Source: an uncultured beta proteobacterium
GTDB lineage: Bacteria; Pseudomonadota; Gammaproteobacteria; Burkholderiales; SG8-41
Assembly (NCBI GenBank): GCA_903933915.1
Contig: CAIZLW010000070.1
Coordinates: forward strand, 1 to 32,080
Length of the DNA: 32,080 nt
Direction: 5' to 3'
Under the pieces are notes generated by a model. It worked only from the letters and a program-made list of their open reading frames with translations. It did no database searches and was not told where the DNA came from. A program made the translations under genes and the position numbers. Below are positions 17,937 to 24,848 of this stretch, piece after piece (within the stretch, counting starts at the first letter, position 1; every line of letters begins with the position of its first letter).

Positions 17937-19169
17937 TCAGACCAGCAGGGTGGCGAGACCGAGCAGCAATCCCATGCTGACGACATCGGTAGCCGTGGTC
18001 AGGAATATGCTTGAGGCCGTGGCCGGATCGAAGCCAAAACGTTTCAGCGTCAGCGGCACCATCGCACCCGATATGCCGCTGGCGACGCAACTGCCAACCA
18101 GCGCGATCCACACCACGAAGCTGAGGACCAGCGCATTGGGATTGTGCTGGTAGCTGGCGACGATAAACATGCCCAGCGCAGCGACCAAACCGGTAAAAGC
18201 GCCGTTCAGCGCACCCAGAGAGGCTTCTTTCAACACCAGTGCGCGTTCTGCGCCGGCCTTGAGCTCACCCAAAGTCATCCCGCGCAGCGTGACCGCCAGC
18301 GCCTGGCATCCGGTATTGCCCGACTGGCCTGCCAGCACCGGCAGGAACAGCGCGAGGATGACGAGGCGATCCACCGTGTCCTGGAAAACGGCGACGACGG
18401 CCCCGGCGACAAATGCCGTGGCCAGATTGATCTGCAGCCAGGGGTGGCGGAATTTGAAACTGGTGTTCAACGGCGTCGCCAGCCGTTCCTCCTTCTCGAC
18501 ACCGACCATGCTGCCGACCTGTGCGGTGATCTCGAAGGCCTGTTCTTCGAACAGGGTCTGTCCGCGAACCATCCCCAGCAGCTTGCCGTTATCGTCGCAC
18601 ACCGGGTACACCGGATAGTGCCGGCCCAGCACGAGCCGCATCGCGTCGGCGAGGGGCAGCCCCGGTTTCAGGTAGAACGCGTTGTGCAGCATCACGGATT
18701 CGAGGGGCATGTGATCCTCGGCGAACAACAGATCACGCATGGTCACTATGCCGAGCAGTTTTCCGGCGCTGTCGATGACGTAGCCGTAAGTGATGATCGC
18801 CGTGCGCACCAGCGGCCGCAGTTGCTCTATGGTGTCGCGCACCGTGATGTCGGGGAGAAACACCGCACGAGCCGGGGTCATCATCCGGCCGATCGTGCCC
18901 TGGGCAAACTGCGCGTTGGTGCGCCACTGCGCAACCACTTCCGGCGGTGCGGCATGCATCACGCCATCGACCAGACCGCCGGGGAGCTCGGCGATGATGT
19001 CCTGGGTCAGTGCCGGTGTGAGGTCCTGCAATACCGTGGCGATGACTGCAGCCGGATGTTCCGCCAGCAGTTCGGCGGCTTCTTTCGGCGATCGCGCTTT
19101 TGCGGCGAGCACCAGTTCGCGGTGTTCGTGGTTTGCTGTTGCGGCAGCCTGATGCTGTTTTTGTTCCAT
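17937..19169 (-). CDS. mgtE: MgtE-type magnesium transporter
   Basis: About 410 residues. The ATG at 19169 is chosen because GGGGAG lies 8 nt upstream; a GTG 24 bp earlier is also in frame. Order of parts: an N-terminal helical MgtE domain (KEAAELLAEHPAAVIATVLQ), a two-CBS-domain region (IGRMMTPARAVFLPDITVRD, YGYVIDSAGKLLGIVTMRDL, YPVYPVCDDNGKLLGMVRGQ), then five membrane helices. The pore signature is LPVLAGQSGNTGCQALAVTLRG, and the acidic FGFDPATASS segment occurs before the last helix. Family role: Mg2+-gated Mg2+ channel in the inner membrane, closed by Mg2+ bound to the cytosolic domain. It is slightly shorter than typical MgtE. No riboswitch was recognised upstream. Confidence 0.94.
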   Translation of the reverse strand: MEQKQHQAAATANHEHRELVLAAKARSPKEAAELLAEHPAAVIATVLQDLTPALTQDIIAELPGGLVDGVMHAAPPEVVAQWRTNAQFAQGTIGRMMTPARAVFLPDITVRDTIEQLRPLVRTAIITYGYVIDSAGKLLGIVTMRDLLFAEDHMPLESVMLHNAFYLKPGLPLADAMRLVLGRHYPVYPVCDDNGKLLGMVRGQTLFEEQAFEITAQVGSMVGVEKEERLATPLNTSFKFRHPWLQINLATAFVAGAVVAVFQDTVDRLVILALFLPVLAGQSGNTGCQALAVTLRGMTLGELKAGAERALVLKEASLGALNGAFTGLVAALGMFIVASYQHNPNALVLSFVVWIALVGSCVASGISGAMVPLTLKRFGFDPATASSIFLTTATDVVSMGLLLGLATLLV

Positions 19170-19261
19170 CGCAGTATCTCCCCGGTCAGCCACAGGCCCG
19201 ACTGTGCCTGCGGGAGGAGTATAGCGAGGGTTCGCGCCGGGTGGCGCGACTTAGGGGCTTT

Positions 19262-20107
19262 TTACAGGCCCAGGCGCTGCCAGATCGTGATGGTCGGTCC
19301 GGCCTGATTCATGGTGTAGAAGTGCAGGCCGGGCGCGCCCGCGGCAAGCAGGTCGTCACAGAGCCGGGTGACGACATCGAGGCCGAAGGCACGGATCGAA
19401 TCGGAATCGTCGCCGTAGCCTTCAAATTTGCGACGCATCCAGCGCGGGATTTCCGCGCCGCAGGCATCGGAGAACCGCGCGAGTTGGGAGAATTTGCCGA
19501 TGGGCATGATGCCCGGAACAATGGGCAGGTTAAGTCCCATCGCTTCGCATTCGTCGACAAAATGAAAGTAACAGTCAGCGTTGTAGAAATACTGGGTAAT
19601 CGCGGAATGCGCACCGGCCTCGACCTTGCGCTTGAAGTTGAGCAGATCGTCCTGTGCGCTTTTCGCCTGCGGGTGGTACTCCGGATAGGCGGCGACTTCA
19701 ATATGGAAATGGTCGCCGAACTCGCTGCGGATGAATGCAACCAGTTCGTTGGCGTAATGGAACTCTCCAGCGGTCGCGGTACCCGAGGGCAGGTCGCCGC
19801 GCAGGGCGACGAGATGGCGGATGCCGTTTTCACGGTAGCCGCGCAGGATGTCGCGAATGTCGTCGCGCGAAGAACCGATGCAGGAGATATGCGGTGCCGC
19901 GGCGTAACCGGCAGCCCGCAGATCAAGCACGGCGCGCAGCGTGCGTTCGCGGGTCGAGCCGCCGGCGCCGTAAGTCACCGAAAAGAATTTCGGATTCAGC
20001 GGTGCCAGTTGTTTGGCGGTCTGGGCGAGCTTGTCCAATCCTTCCGGCGTGTTCGGCGGGAAGAACTCGAAGCTGAAAGTGCGCGGGAGTTTTTTCTGTG
20101 ATTGCAT
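19262..20107 (-). CDS. metF: 5,10-methylenetetrahydrofolate reductase
   Basis: A 281-residue TIM-barrel flavoprotein of normal MetF length. FSFEFFPPNTPEG has the catalytic Glu, VTYGAGGSTR is the NADH/folate signature, and RGDLP, YPEYHP, and ITQYFYNADCYFHFVD are further family motifs. It reduces methylene-THF to methyl-THF, the methyl donor for methionine synthesis. It is second in the ahcY-metF operon, 60 bp after ahcY, and therefore falls under the SAH-responsive leader upstream. No clear Shine-Dalgarno precedes ATG 20107. Confidence 0.97.
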   Translation of the reverse strand: MQSQKKLPRTFSFEFFPPNTPEGLDKLAQTAKQLAPLNPKFFSVTYGAGGSTRERTLRAVLDLRAAGYAAAPHISCIGSSRDDIRDILRGYRENGIRHLVALRGDLPSGTATAGEFHYANELVAFIRSEFGDHFHIEVAAYPEYHPQAKSAQDDLLNFKRKVEAGAHSAITQYFYNADCYFHFVDECEAMGLNLPIVPGIMPIGKFSQLARFSDACGAEIPRWMRRKFEGYGDDSDSIRAFGLDVVTRLCDDLLAAGAPGLHFYTMNQAGPTITIWQRLGL

Positions 20108-20167: not shown

Positions 20168-21571
<1,404 letters not shown>

Positions 21572-21594
21572 GTCTTACTCCTGGATAGGTAGTC

Positions 21595-21676
21595 GGGCGC
21601 CGTTACCAGCATGCCGTCCGAGCCTGGCCGGTGTGCGGGTTAAACCTTCGACCCGCCCGGTCGCAGCGCCCCTCGG
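21595..21676 (-). ncRNA. SAH riboswitch, proximal copy (ahcY leader)
   Basis: On the minus strand the leader reads CCGAGGGGCGCTGCGACCGG, then CCGGCCAGGCTCGG, the conserved SAH riboswitch core. P1 pairs CCGAG (21676-21672) with CTCGG (21622-21618). P2 pairs the two CCGG elements, extended by GCGGGT:ACCCGC. The pseudoknot pairs GGGCGC (21671-21666) with GCGCCC (21600-21595). The element ends about 12 nt before the ahcY AGGAG. A CTGG at its 3' side could pair with CCAG at the ribosome binding site when the pseudoknot is open, which would fit SAH-on control of translation. Aptamer identity is seen directly; the mechanism is inferred. Confidence 0.92.
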
Positions 21677-21710
21677 GGGCACGTTTTAGTTGATGCGAAA
21701 TCGTTGCTAC

Positions 21711-21747
21711 AAAAGCAAAGCGCCCGCCCCGTTTCCGGTGCGAGCGC
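21711..21747 (-). terminator. terminator-like hairpin between the two SAH aptamers
   Basis: On the minus strand GCGCTCGC (21747-21740) can pair with GCGGGCGC (21727-21720; 8 pairs, one G-U), followed by TTTGCTTTT. The 5' arm includes GCGCTC (21747-21742), which is also the 3' pseudoknot strand of the distal aptamer. The two structures are therefore mutually exclusive, as in an SAH-controlled antitermination switch. It could also act as the end of the metK transcript. Confidence 0.6.
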
Positions 21748-21818
21748 CGTTGATATCTTTGCTGAGCCTGGCCGGTAAATGTGGCTTAAACCCCACCCGG
21801 TCGCAACGCTCCTCAGCG
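21742..21818 (-). ncRNA. SAH riboswitch, distal copy (first in the ahcY leader)
   Basis: A second complete aptamer on the minus strand: GCTGAGGAGCGTTGCGACCGG, then CCGGCCAGGCTCAGC. P1 pairs GCTGAG (21817-21812) with CTCAGC (21766-21761). P2 pairs CCGG with CCGG, extended by GTGG:CCAC. The pseudoknot pairs GAGCGT (21811-21806) with GCGCTC (21747-21742, one G-U). P1 and the P2 extension differ from the proximal copy with pairing kept, while the core bases are the same, which argues for two working aptamers rather than a decayed duplicate. It starts about 20 bp after the metK stop. Confidence 0.9.
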
Positions 21819-21824
21819 GGGCAA

Positions 21825-21830
21825 ATTATA
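21825..21830 (-). promoter_or_regulatory. -10 box (TATAAT) of the ahcY-metF operon
   Basis: A perfect TATAAT on the minus strand, 8 nt after the metK stop codon. Transcription would begin at about 21818, exactly at the 5' side of the distal aptamer. No good -35 was found inside the metK 3' end. The position fits an independent ahcY-metF promoter. Confidence 0.6.
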
Positions 21831-21837
21831 CGCCTTT

Positions 21838-23004
21838 TTATTTGATGCCCGCGTCCGCCTTGAGGGCTGCTGCCTTGTCGGTGTGCTCCCAGGTGAATTC
21901 CGGCTCGTCGCGGCCGAAATGGCCATGGGCAGCGGTCTTGGTGTAGATCGGGCGCAGCAGGTCCAGCGACTGGATGATGCCTTTCGGGCGCAGGTCGAAG
22001 TGTTTCTCGACCAGTGCCGCGATTTTGTCGTCAGAAATTTTCCCGGTGCCGAAGGTATCAACCAGCACGCTGACCGGACGCGCGACGCCGATGGCGTAGG
22101 CGACCTGGATTTCGCACTTGGTGGCGAGGCCTGCGGCCACAATGTTTTTCGCGACATAACGCGCGGCGTAGGCGGCCGAGCGGTCAACCTTCGACGGATC
22201 TTTGCCCGAGAACGCGCCGCCGCCGTGGCGCGAGTAGCCGCCGTAGGTGTCGACGATGATCTTGCGCCCGGTCAGTCCGGTGTCGCCCTGCGGGCCGCCG
22301 ATGACGAAGCGGCCGGTCGGGTTGATCAGGAACTTGGTGTCCTGGGTGACCATGTTCTTCGGCAGCACGGGCTTCACTACCTGCTCGATGATCGCTTCTG
22401 TCAGTTCCTTGTGGCCGATGTCTTCACGATGCTGCGTCGAAATGACCACGGTGTCGATGTGGTGCGGCTTGCCGTCGACATAGCGTACGGAAACCTGCGA
22501 CTTCGCGTCGGGGCGTGCCCACGGCAGGCGGCCATCGCGGCGCAACTCGGCATGACGTTCCATCAGGCGGTGCGAGTAATAGATCGGCATCGGCATCAGC
22601 TGCGGCGTTTCGTCGCAGGCGAAACCGAACATCAGGCCCTGGTCGCCGGCCCCCTGGTCGAGGTCGAGGCCCTTGCCTTCGTCCACGCCCTGCGCGATGT
22701 CCGGTGACTGTTCGTCGTAGCACACCATGACGCCGCAGCTCTTGTAGTCGAAACCGATTTCGGAATCGTCATAACCGATCTGCTTGATGATCTGGCGCGC
22801 AACCTTGGCGTAATCGACGCGGGCAGTCGTTGTTACCTGGCCCGCGAGCACTACAAGGCCGGTATGCGTCAGTGTTTCGGCAGCGACGCGGCCGTTTTTA
22901 TCCTGGGCAAGAATGGCGTCGAGTACGGCATCTGAAATCTGGTCGGCGATTTTGTCGGGATGGCCTTCGGAAACCGATTCGGAAGTGAACAGGAAATTGC
23001 TCAT
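21838..23004 (-). CDS. metK: S-adenosylmethionine synthetase
   Basis: A 388-residue protein from the ATG at 23004 ([20 protein letters not shown]); the frame stays open further upstream but the family N-terminus fixes this start. [33 protein letters not shown] and [22 protein letters not shown] are the catalytic ATP/methionine and metal/K+ motifs. It makes SAM from methionine and ATP. It lies upstream of ahcY-metF on the same strand, so the window holds SAM synthesis, SAH removal and methyl-folate supply together. No SAM riboswitch was recognised in the 120 bp spacer before it. Confidence 0.98.
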
Positions 23005-23041
23005 GGCTTGGTGTGTGATCGCAGGAAAGTTAATCAGGGAT

Positions 23042-23077
23042 GCGGCAAAAAGGCCGCAAGGTTCGGCAAAAAGGCCG
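23042..23077. repeat. two copies of CGGCAAAAAGGCCG in the metK/lpxL divergent spacer
   Basis: CGGCAAAAAGGCCG occurs at 23043-23056 and 23064-23077, a 21 bp period (two helical turns). Each copy is itself an inverted repeat (GCGGC/GCCGC in the first, CGGC/GCCG in the second) around A5G. On the minus strand the copies are downstream of, or overlap, the likely metK start site. They could be protein-binding sites or small hairpins in the metK leader. Confidence 0.6.
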
Positions 23078-23079
23078 TT

Positions 23080-23085
23080 AGAATA
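23080..23085 (-). promoter_or_regulatory. possible extended -10 of metK
   Basis: On the minus strand TGCTATTCT gives an extended -10 (TGN plus TATTCT). A TTAATA lies 17 bp upstream as a weak -35. The start site would be near 23073, leaving a leader of about 70 nt that contains the first CGGCAAAAAGGCCG hairpin. Confidence 0.4.
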
Positions 23086-23124
23086 GCACATAACCCTCGA
23101 TTTATTAACGGATTTCCCGGTCTG

Positions 23125-23982
23125 ATGCCCCTGTTGTCCGCATTGATGCGCCTCGGCGCACGTATGCCCTTGGCGGCGCTGCATTTTTTCGGCGCCGGAC
23201 TGGGCTGGCTGGTCTATGGACTGTCAGCGACGTATCGCCGCCGCTGTCGCGAAAACCTGCGTGCCAGCGCACTTTGTGCCGACGAGGCGGCTTACCGCAG
23301 CACGCTGCATGCCACGGTGGCGGAGACCGGCAAGAGCATCACTGAATTGTGCCGCGTCTGGTTTGGCGACGATGACGAGATCGACCGCATCGTGCGTTGC
23401 GACGACTGGGCGGTGGTGGATGCAGCGCTCGGCAAGGGCAAGGGACTGATTTTTCTGACGCCGCATCTGGGCTGTTTTGAAATTTCCGCGCTGTACAGCG
23501 CCCGCCGTCTGCCGCTGACCGTGCTCTATCGCCCGCCGAAACGCGCCGGACTCGAAGCCTTGATGCAGGCCGGCCGCCAGCGTGCGCAGGCGCGGCTGGC
23601 ACCGGCCAATTTGCTGGGGGTGCGCTTGCTGATCAAGGCGCTGCGCCGCGGCGAGGCGATCGGCATATTGCCGGACCAGGCGCCGGGCGTCGGCGAGGGC
23701 GAGTGGGTGGATTTTTTCGGCCGCCCCGCGTACACCATGACGCTGGTGTCGCGGCTGCAGGCGTCCACGGGTGCCGCGGTGGTGATGGTCTTTGCTGAAC
23801 GCTTGCCGCAAGGCGCAGGCTACCGCATGCATCTGGAACGGGTGTCAGCCGATCCGCTCGATCCTGCCGCGCTTAATCGCGCAGTCGAGCGGGTGATTGG
23901 CCGCTGCCCCGCGCAATACCTCTGGGGTTACAACCGTTACAAGGTGCCGGCCGGTGCCGAACCGCCGGCTGCTGCTGCATGA
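23125..23982 (+). CDS. lysophospholipid/lipid A acyltransferase, LpxL/HtrB family (copy 1)
   Basis: About 285 residues from ATG 23125 (weak upstream CGGA; the frame extends further 5' into metK but that part is antisense to metK). An N-terminal membrane anchor ([20 protein letters not shown]) precedes the acyltransferase core. The catalytic H-x4-E is in [11 protein letters not shown] (His114, Glu119). [18 protein letters not shown] and GYNRYKVP are the later LpxL motifs. Family role: transfer of a secondary acyl chain from acyl-ACP to Kdo-lipid A precursor at the inner membrane. It overlaps the next gene by 4 bp, and the pair is a paralogous tandem common upstream of dapF in betaproteobacteria. 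Which of the two acts first is not determinable. Confidence 0.9.
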
Positions 23983-24848
23983 TGACGCGGCTCGGACTCG
24001 GGCTGATCTGGTTGCTGCACTGGCTGCCGCTGGCTCTGCTGGCGCCGCTGGGCCGTGCCGCGGGCCTGCTGCTGTATGCGCTGGCGGGAGAACGGCGGCG
24101 CGTGGTGCTGACCAATCTGCGGCTGTGTTTTCCCGATTTGCGCGAACAGCAACGGGTGCAGCTTGCGCGCAATCACTTTGCGGTATTCACGCGCAGCCTG
24201 CTCGAGCACGGCATCCTGTGGTGGGGCAGCCGCGAACGCGTGCTGCGCATGGTGCGTGTCGAGGGCCTGGAGCACTGGCTTGCGGTACGCGAGCGGCCGG
24301 TGATCTGGCTGTCGCCGCATTTTGTCGGACTCGACATGGGCGGCATCCGGCTGACCGCGGAATTTCCGCTGGTGTCGGTGTACAGCAAACAGAAAAATCC
24401 GGTGTTCGATGCGGTGCTGCTGCACGGCCGCACGCGACTGGGCCCGACCGAGCTGTATTCACGCCAGGACGGCATCCGGCCGGTGGCGAAAGCGATTAAA
24501 AAAGGGTTGCCGTTTTATTACCTGCCAGACATGGACTTCGGCGAACGCGATTCGATGTTCGTGCCGTTTTTCGGCGTTCCCGCCGCGACCATCACCGGGC
24601 TTGCGCGCATTGCGGCGATGACCGGCGCGGTGGTGGTGCCGGCGGTGACCACCCAACTGCCGGGCGGCGACGGCTATGTGCTGCGCTTTTATCGCGCCTG
24701 GGACCACTATCCCAGTGGCGATCTGGCGGCGGACACGCGGCGCATGAATGCTTTCATCGAGGAGCGCGTGCGCGAAATGCCGGAACAGTATTACTGGCTG
24801 CACAAACGCTTCAAGACGCGGCCGGCCGGCGAGGAAAGGATTTATTAA
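23979..24848 (+). CDS. lysophospholipid/lipid A acyltransferase, LpxL/HtrB family (copy 2)
   Basis: 289 residues from ATG 23979, whose codon overlaps the previous stop (ATGA); an adjacent ATG at 23982 is equally possible. An N-terminal membrane helix (LGLIWLLHWLPLALLAPLG) is followed by the catalytic H-x4-D in LSPHFVGLDMGG (His114, Asp119). YLPDMDFGERDSMFVPFFG and YYWLHKRFKTRP are the later family motifs. It is clearly a paralog of the preceding gene but differs at the catalytic acid (Asp against Glu). It probably adds the other secondary acyl chain of lipid A. The palindromic repeat at 24850-24937 follows directly. Confidence 0.92.
   Translation: MMTRLGLGLIWLLHWLPLALLAPLGRAAGLLLYALAGERRRVVLTNLRLCFPDLREQQRVQLARNHFAVFTRSLLEHGILWWGSRERVLRMVRVEGLEHWLAVRERPVIWLSPHFVGLDMGGIRLTAEFPLVSVYSKQKNPVFDAVLLHGRTRLGPTELYSRQDGIRPVAKAIKKGLPFYYLPDMDFGERDSMFVPFFGVPAATITGLARIAAMTGAVVVPAVTTQLPGGDGYVLRFYRAWDHYPSGDLAADTRRMNAFIEERVREMPEQYYWLHKRFKTRPAGEERIY

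Follow-up and report, generated by a model that had tools for sequence, protein, structure and literature searches.

The leader of ahcY, the S-adenosylhomocysteine (SAH) hydrolase gene on the 32,080-nt stretch of DNA from an uncultured beta proteobacterium analyzed here (in the following, the window), is likely to be a tandem riboswitch in which two aptamers for the same ligand, SAH, turn on ahcY and probably also metF. On the minus strand, the genes are arranged in the order metK, a gap of 266 nt, ahcY, and metF (Table 1; the metK start codon was picked by eye from its ORF), and this order, together with the common strand, indicates that metF probably shares the operon of ahcY. Behind metF follows a gene for an MgtE-like magnesium transporter (17937-19193, minus strand), the match of which (161.7 of 232.75 bits) is below the curated cut-off. 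Divergent from metK, two adjacent genes for lysophospholipid/LpxL-type acyltransferases are present (22960-24848, plus strand), the first of which alone passes the curated cut-off (NF006487, 362.8 bits).

A preliminary description of this DNA, made from its letters alone, had proposed two complete SAH aptamers upstream of ahcY. The Rfam scan of the minus strand bore this out, as both copies exceed the RF01057 gathering score of 37 bits (Table 1). No other Rfam family was found in the window at its gathering score, a relaxed search added only matches far under the cut-offs of their families, and in the whole assembly these two are the only SAH matches. Both copies contain P1, P2, and the pseudoknot with the conserved core characteristic of RF01057, and SAM-cycle genes (ahcY, then metF) are located downstream. 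In the accessible sections of a 2022 survey of tandem riboswitches, same-ligand tandems are delimited by the same direction, a gap of at most 300 nt, and no intervening ORF (PMC9481103); here, the two matches are 54 nt apart on one strand, and no minus-strand ORF of at least 80 aa overlaps the gap. The copies differ in a way that preserves pairing, as had been described for P1 and the P2 extension: P1 is GCUGAG/CUCAGC in aptamer 1 and CCGAG/CUCGG in aptamer 2, with one compensated pair (U-A vs C-G), one pseudoknot pair is compensated as well (A-U vs G-C), and the P2 extensions, compared by eye, are unlike each other yet paired in both copies.

Table 1. Features of the ahcY leader and its neighboring genes (positions within the window)
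Feature	Position	Strand	Basis or remark
metK (SAM synthetase)	21838..23004	-	TIGR01034, 598 bits for 23013-21838
TATAAT, probable -10 of the ahcY promoter	21825..21830	-	7 nt before P1 of aptamer 1
SAH aptamer 1 (distal)	21735..21820	-	RF01057, 54.1 bits
Aptamer 1 pseudoknot, 5′ strand GAGCGU	21806..21811	-	sequence
Aptamer 1 pseudoknot, 3′ strand GCGCUC (bases 1-6 of the terminator 5′ arm)	21742..21747	-	
Putative intrinsic terminator hairpin with GAAA loop (11 of 12 positions paired)	21720..21747	-	sequence, folding, comparison
U-rich tract of the terminator, TTTGCTTTT	21711..21719	-	sequence
SAH aptamer 2 (proximal)	21588..21680	-	RF01057, 45.8 bits; core conserved in genus
Aptamer 2 pseudoknot, 5′ strand GGGCGC	21666..21671	-	sequence
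Aptamer 2 pseudoknot, 3′ strand GCGCCC	21595..21600	-	sequence
Shine-Dalgarno sequence AGGAG	21578..21582	-	12 nt after the aptamer 2 pseudoknot
ahcY (S-adenosylhomocysteine hydrolase), presumed controlled gene	20168..21571	-	TIGR00936, 605 bits
metF (methylenetetrahydrofolate reductase)	19262..20107	-	TIGR00676, 343.6 bits

Between the aptamers lies a hairpin, GCGCTCGCACCG-GAAA-CGGGGCGGGCGC, followed by TTTGCTTTTG. Its 5′ arm had been reported to hold the 3′ strand of the aptamer 1 pseudoknot, and indeed GCGCUC opens the arm; this overlap stands, but the length does not, the stem being longer than the 8-base arm originally written down. The calculated energy of the window's stem is −20.7 kcal/mol, of which −5.5 kcal/mol remain when the six shared bases are left out together with their partners; across the tandem leaders compiled for comparison, the mean changed from −24.3 to −8.8 kcal/mol once the six shared pairs were removed. 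The pseudoknot of aptamer 1 and the terminator are mutually exclusive folds.

The comparison was based on 33 tandem leaders from at least four families: 26 (the window included), another 4, and 3 from a pattern scan of GTDB contigs; one leader (G046) was parsed under a looser rule than the other 32. The pattern scan was strict and its yield is, thus, a lower bound; its 24 stretches comprised 20 leaders already known, three new ones (L081, L092, and L095), and one titled as Akkermansiaceae (L093), which was discarded because its sequence contains no aptamer and resembles a fortuitous hit within a coding region. In 32 of the 33 leaders, ahcY is located downstream; in the remaining one, the contig ends first. 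Every leader contains a stem of 11-13 pairs, its first bases being the pseudoknot strand of aptamer 1, and at least six T are present in the 10 nt behind this stem; 393 of the 396 cells at stem positions 0-11 are paired. Position 9 is C-G in 21, U-A in 6, and U-G in 6 leaders, and position 11 is G-C in 24, U-A in 4, A-U, G-U, and U-G in one each, and unpaired in 2. These include two-sided changes, from C-G to U-A at position 9 (6 leaders) and from G-C to U-A or A-U at position 11 (5 leaders). The third unpaired cell is the window's own A·G mismatch at stem position 8; with this mismatch (stem score 9) and a U tract interrupted by GC, the window's terminator is weaker than the average one. When the 54 nt after the window's pseudoknot strand were shuffled 5000 times with conservation of dinucleotides, 76 shuffles equalled its stem, and 5 did so with at least six T in the next 10 nt. 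Pooled over the 33 leaders, none of 6600 shuffles attained a stem score of at least 11 with at least six T, which 32 of the 33 real leaders do (the window, with its score of 9, does not). A simple terminator scan missed the window's hairpin and reported another, overlapping 6-pair stem at 21731-21716, with two matches in the region versus 1.2 expected.

The hexamer TATAAT, absent from the preliminary description, is separated by only 7 nt each from the metK stop codon and from P1 of aptamer 1; therefore, the RNA probably begins at P1. At a distance of 6-8 nt before P1, a −10-like hexamer with at most one mismatch is found in each of the 33 tandem leaders, 27 of which have an exact TATAAT. A standard promoter scan of the window called no promoter because no recognizable −35 element is present. 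Judged from these sequence features, aptamer 1 very probably acts as an antiterminator that is induced by SAH and has a promoter of its own. Transcription would start at or beside P1, as TATAAT suggests. Without SAH, GCGCUC would pair with the downstream GGGCGC, the terminator would form, and transcription would stop ∼110 nt into the leader. With SAH bound, the pseudoknot would capture GCGCUC, which would leave only a short upper stem and let the polymerase read on. The earlier proposal that an SAH-locked pseudoknot blocks the terminator is, thus, strongly supported by the anatomy of the leader and by the overlap being kept in 33 of 33 cases.

As metK ends just upstream, and RNA reading through from metK would meet the hairpin, the latter could also be a plain metK terminator, with the aptamers acting on translation only. 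This is very unlikely, however: the hairpin is located downstream of the conserved −10-like hexamer, its 5′ arm opens with the pseudoknot strand in all 33 leaders, many leaders have no metK end directly upstream (as judged by eye, not by annotation), and the same type of hairpin is found directly before the gene in 4 of 49 leaders with a single SAH aptamer. These single leaders were picked from the higher-scoring matches and from the family, and are not a random sample. The four (L012, L023, L067, and L112) were counted under a strict rule and the number is low, as L113 and L114 were excluded although they have, by eye, imperfect hairpins with a T-rich tail. They share the aptamer 1 type, the upstream TATAAT, and the pseudoknot-strand terminator, which lies shortly before the start codon, but lack a second aptamer, and look like a one-stage, transcriptional version. 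Five of the 49 precede a metH-looking gene instead of ahcY, an assignment made from NCBIfam matches of partial proteins for L064 and L066 and by eye from the first residues for L059, L060, and L061. In genera g9 and g6, a separate second SAH aptamer precedes a gene with a start like that of methionine synthase MetH (L064:1174-2199 and L066:484-1497, and also L059, L060, and L061).

How widespread the paired arrangement is was assessed at several taxonomic depths. SAH matches were found in 55 of 61 genomes in the search of relatives and in 64 of 74 genomes in that of the family. Adjacent copies occurred in 25 of the 74: in 19 of the 21 genomes from the window's genus, 2 of the 3 from genus g7, 1 of the 5 from g4, and 3 of the 10 from g3, but in none of the 35 from the family's other five genera. 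The two members of the window's genus without a pair are incomplete assemblies, one without any ahcY match, the other with no more than the last 72 residues of ahcY where a contig ends, and a weak match in another place. Thus, the second copy upstream of ahcY, for which a search of relatives had been suggested, is kept in 19 of 19 genomes of the genus that have the ahcY start assembled. In a sample of the order, 335 of 399 genomes had SAH matches and 36 of these had two, which were adjacent in 12; in the others, they were separated by 1.2 kb or more, or did not share a contig. In a sample of the class, 56 of 143 genomes had SAH matches, and none of the 54 SAH-bearing genomes outside the order had an adjacent pair, although these large searches were filtered at the expense of weak matches, so that second copies may be missed. 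The statement that SAH riboswitches normally occur singly agrees with these frequencies (12 of 335 and 0 of 54). The tandem layout is, nevertheless, conserved in the window's genus and present in at least four families.

The two aptamers differ not only within the window. Over a core of 47 nt, the two aptamers of one leader are on average 77% identical, whereas identity between groups is 94.5% among aptamers 1 and 84% among aptamers 2. In all 66 cases, a copy had its nearest match outside its own group in the corresponding copy, never in the other one (with L081 and L095 counted apart from their near relatives in f11). By this measure of sequence identity, aptamers 1 and 2 are separate lineages. 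Both have kept their pseudoknots (G-U allowed), which are fully paired in 33 of 33 leaders for aptamer 1 and in 32 of 33 for aptamer 2, with one mismatch in G120 and a compensated change in G083 (AGGCGC/GCGCCU). The source of the window is fragmented (246 contigs) and has 7.19% contamination, which might raise the suspicion of a duplication introduced by assembly, or of two chance matches. The comparisons across assemblies refute this, and we attach next to no probability to it: the 33 leaders stem from different assemblies, the compensated signatures of the two copies are fixed, and like always matched like. In an ahcY tree of 74 rows, the bootstrap of which had not settled, the tandem state requires 11 changes at best, and at least 8 on branches with good support; therefore, it was repeatedly gained or lost, or ahcY moved. 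Within genus g3 alone, there are tandem (G022, G079, and G083), first-only (G030, G036, and G082), and second-only (G085) versions, and 3 of 10 genomes have no SAH match. This suggests that two modules were joined and were lost separately; we infer the direction of these events.

RNA that has passed the terminator would carry the second aptamer, which lies 12 nt ahead of the Shine-Dalgarno sequence, is conserved, and would most likely serve to sense SAH once more at the ribosome binding site. Sequence identity within the genus is 99% for the aptamer 1 core, 96% for the terminator arms, 93% for the aptamer 2 core, and 32-42% for spacers and P2 loops. As the spacers and the P2 loop surrounding the aptamer 2 core are only 32-38% identical, this core looks selected. 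That aptamer 1 controls termination and SAH-bound aptamer 2 frees the ribosome binding site is possible, in our estimate just short of an even chance. The first copy has its terminator, by anatomy and by conservation, as expected for two such different mechanisms in series, and aptamer 2 ends close to the Shine-Dalgarno sequence without a terminator behind it; no terminator-like hairpin was found after aptamer 2 in any of the 33 leaders, the best stems having at most 9 pairs and at most 4 T.

Folding of the region downstream of aptamer 2 gave different pictures for different groups. The folded segment began at the aptamer 2 pseudoknot strand and extended 20 nt beyond the first base of the AUG. 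For this segment, the eight tandem leaders from other families (G046, G419, G112, G197, G120, L081, L092, and L095) yielded −11.8 to −16.7 kcal/mol, and several of them paired the strand into the AUGAGCGC start region or close beside the Shine-Dalgarno sequence. In addition, the aptamer 2 strand GCGCCC is present in 7 of the 49 single leaders, in five of which (L024, L029, L068, L101, and L103) a CCAUUC/GAAUGG hairpin reaches onto the Shine-Dalgarno sequence. Gating of the ribosome site by aptamer 2 is, thus, plausible in other families, as modelled by folding. The six leaders from g3, g4, and g7 yielded −4.4 to −9.6 kcal/mol, whereas the 19 from the window's genus folded weakly, all of them between −3.6 and −6.9 kcal/mol. 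There, blocking the strand increased local accessibility of the Shine-Dalgarno sequence by more than 0.2 in a single leader (G018), and no conserved hairpin sequestering the ribosome site after aptamer 2 was found by folding the 19 leaders. For the window's genus, the proposed gating of the ribosome binding site by aptamer 2 is, therefore, unsupported.

Folds comprising aptamer 2 and the ribosome site, either free or in a bound-like state (P1 formed, pseudoknot strands blocked), point in the same direction: over the 33 leaders, mean accessibility of the Shine-Dalgarno sequence was 0.42 free and 0.43 bound-like, with changes of more than 0.2 upward in three (G013, G016, and G064) and downward in two (G018 and G026). 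Accessibility of the start codon, on the other hand, increased by more than 0.5 in two leaders, G008 and G112. The window's small hairpin over the Shine-Dalgarno sequence is indifferent to blocking of the pseudoknot strand (accessibility of 0.04 in either case) and has a non-conserved arm; between pseudoknot and Shine-Dalgarno sequence, 0 of 23 columns are invariant in the genus. RNAalifold, applied to the genus leaders around aptamer 2, mainly returned the pseudoknot strands pairing with each other. A CUGG/CCAG pairing of only 4 bp, which joins the Shine-Dalgarno region to the linker of aptamer 2, was seen by eye in 15 of 19 genus leaders, is broken in G002, G005, G008, and G017, and is at most a lead. 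Pairing of the 5′ strand of aptamer 2 P1 with the Shine-Dalgarno sequence was considered as well and rejected; it was encountered in G013, G005, and G083 and is absent from the window. Aptamer 2 could also bind SAH and act on mRNA stability or Rho-dependent termination rather than on ribosome access. That the core is 93% conserved, while the spacer up to the Shine-Dalgarno sequence offers it no conserved partner, is compatible with such a role, for which nothing positive was found, and we consider it rather unlikely.

The single leaders behaved differently in the same type of fold: many reached about −16 to −23 kcal/mol, and the Shine-Dalgarno sequence was mostly buried (41 of the 49 had a readable site), but often so even with the strand blocked, which means that this test gauges the presence of a hairpin better than switching. 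In a number of them (L003, L008, L015, L062, L065, and similar ones), the order GCGCUCACG...CUUUUUU...GAAAGGAG...CGUGAUG recurs, in which the pseudoknot strand and a U run enclose the Shine-Dalgarno sequence and the start codon, a very regular and apparently translational platform.

Compared with the single-copy RF01057 riboswitches before ahcY, aptamer fold, pseudoknot, target gene, and presumed ON direction are the same, but here two copies lie side by side, each of which has its own fixed signature in P1 and in the pseudoknot, and a terminator platform belongs to the first. In the portions of the literature at hand, SAH riboswitches are described as located before ahcY, usually with metF, in one or two operons per genome (PMC4239095), and double copies are described for glycine, in contrast to other motifs (PMC3766115). 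No mention of a tandem SAH riboswitch was found in the available text of PMC2864571 and PMC10907184. No paper describing one emerged from the literature search, the coverage of which is thin for subscription papers and which is no proof of absence. The tandem survey, in its accessible sections, discusses why some classes are without tandem layouts and lists SAH in Table 3 among the classes not found in tandem (PMC9481103). As far as described there, the bi-mechanism SAM-II/SAM-V tandem likewise has its first copy before an intrinsic terminator and its second near the ribosome binding site, with a related ligand, but combines two classes and shuts expression down, whereas the ahcY leader uses one class, is presumably ON, and has a putative second stage. 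Also in those sections, the pseudo-cooperative tandems (TPP, glutamine, lysine, and others) likewise consist of two independent sensors of the same class in series, for which a steeper response is expected; in many of them the second copy has a terminator, however, which the second copy here lacks (PMC9481103). For two equal, independent switches in series, the calculated 10-90% span shrinks from 81-fold to 40-fold; the steeper response from two SAH sensors is arithmetic, not evidence.

A further scenario is an AND gate for a single ligand, in which two modules of separate evolutionary origin were joined, one of promoter and antiterminator and one formerly translational. In the window's genus, the second module would have lost its ribosome-site hairpin but kept the aptamer, the bound pseudoknot of which, 12 nt ahead of the Shine-Dalgarno sequence, would turn expression on platform-free, via the ribosome or the fate of the mRNA. 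We offer it tentatively and consider it rather unlikely as a whole.

A conserved tandem SAH riboswitch in at least four families is a counterexample to the list of classes not found in tandem, which, in the form given in the accessible part of the survey, needs correcting (PMC9481103). As genus g3 has the tandem, the first-only, and the second-only version, it constitutes a natural test series for what the second sensor adds. SAH inhibits methyltransferases, and a sharp ON switch for SAH hydrolase would, therefore, make physiological sense.
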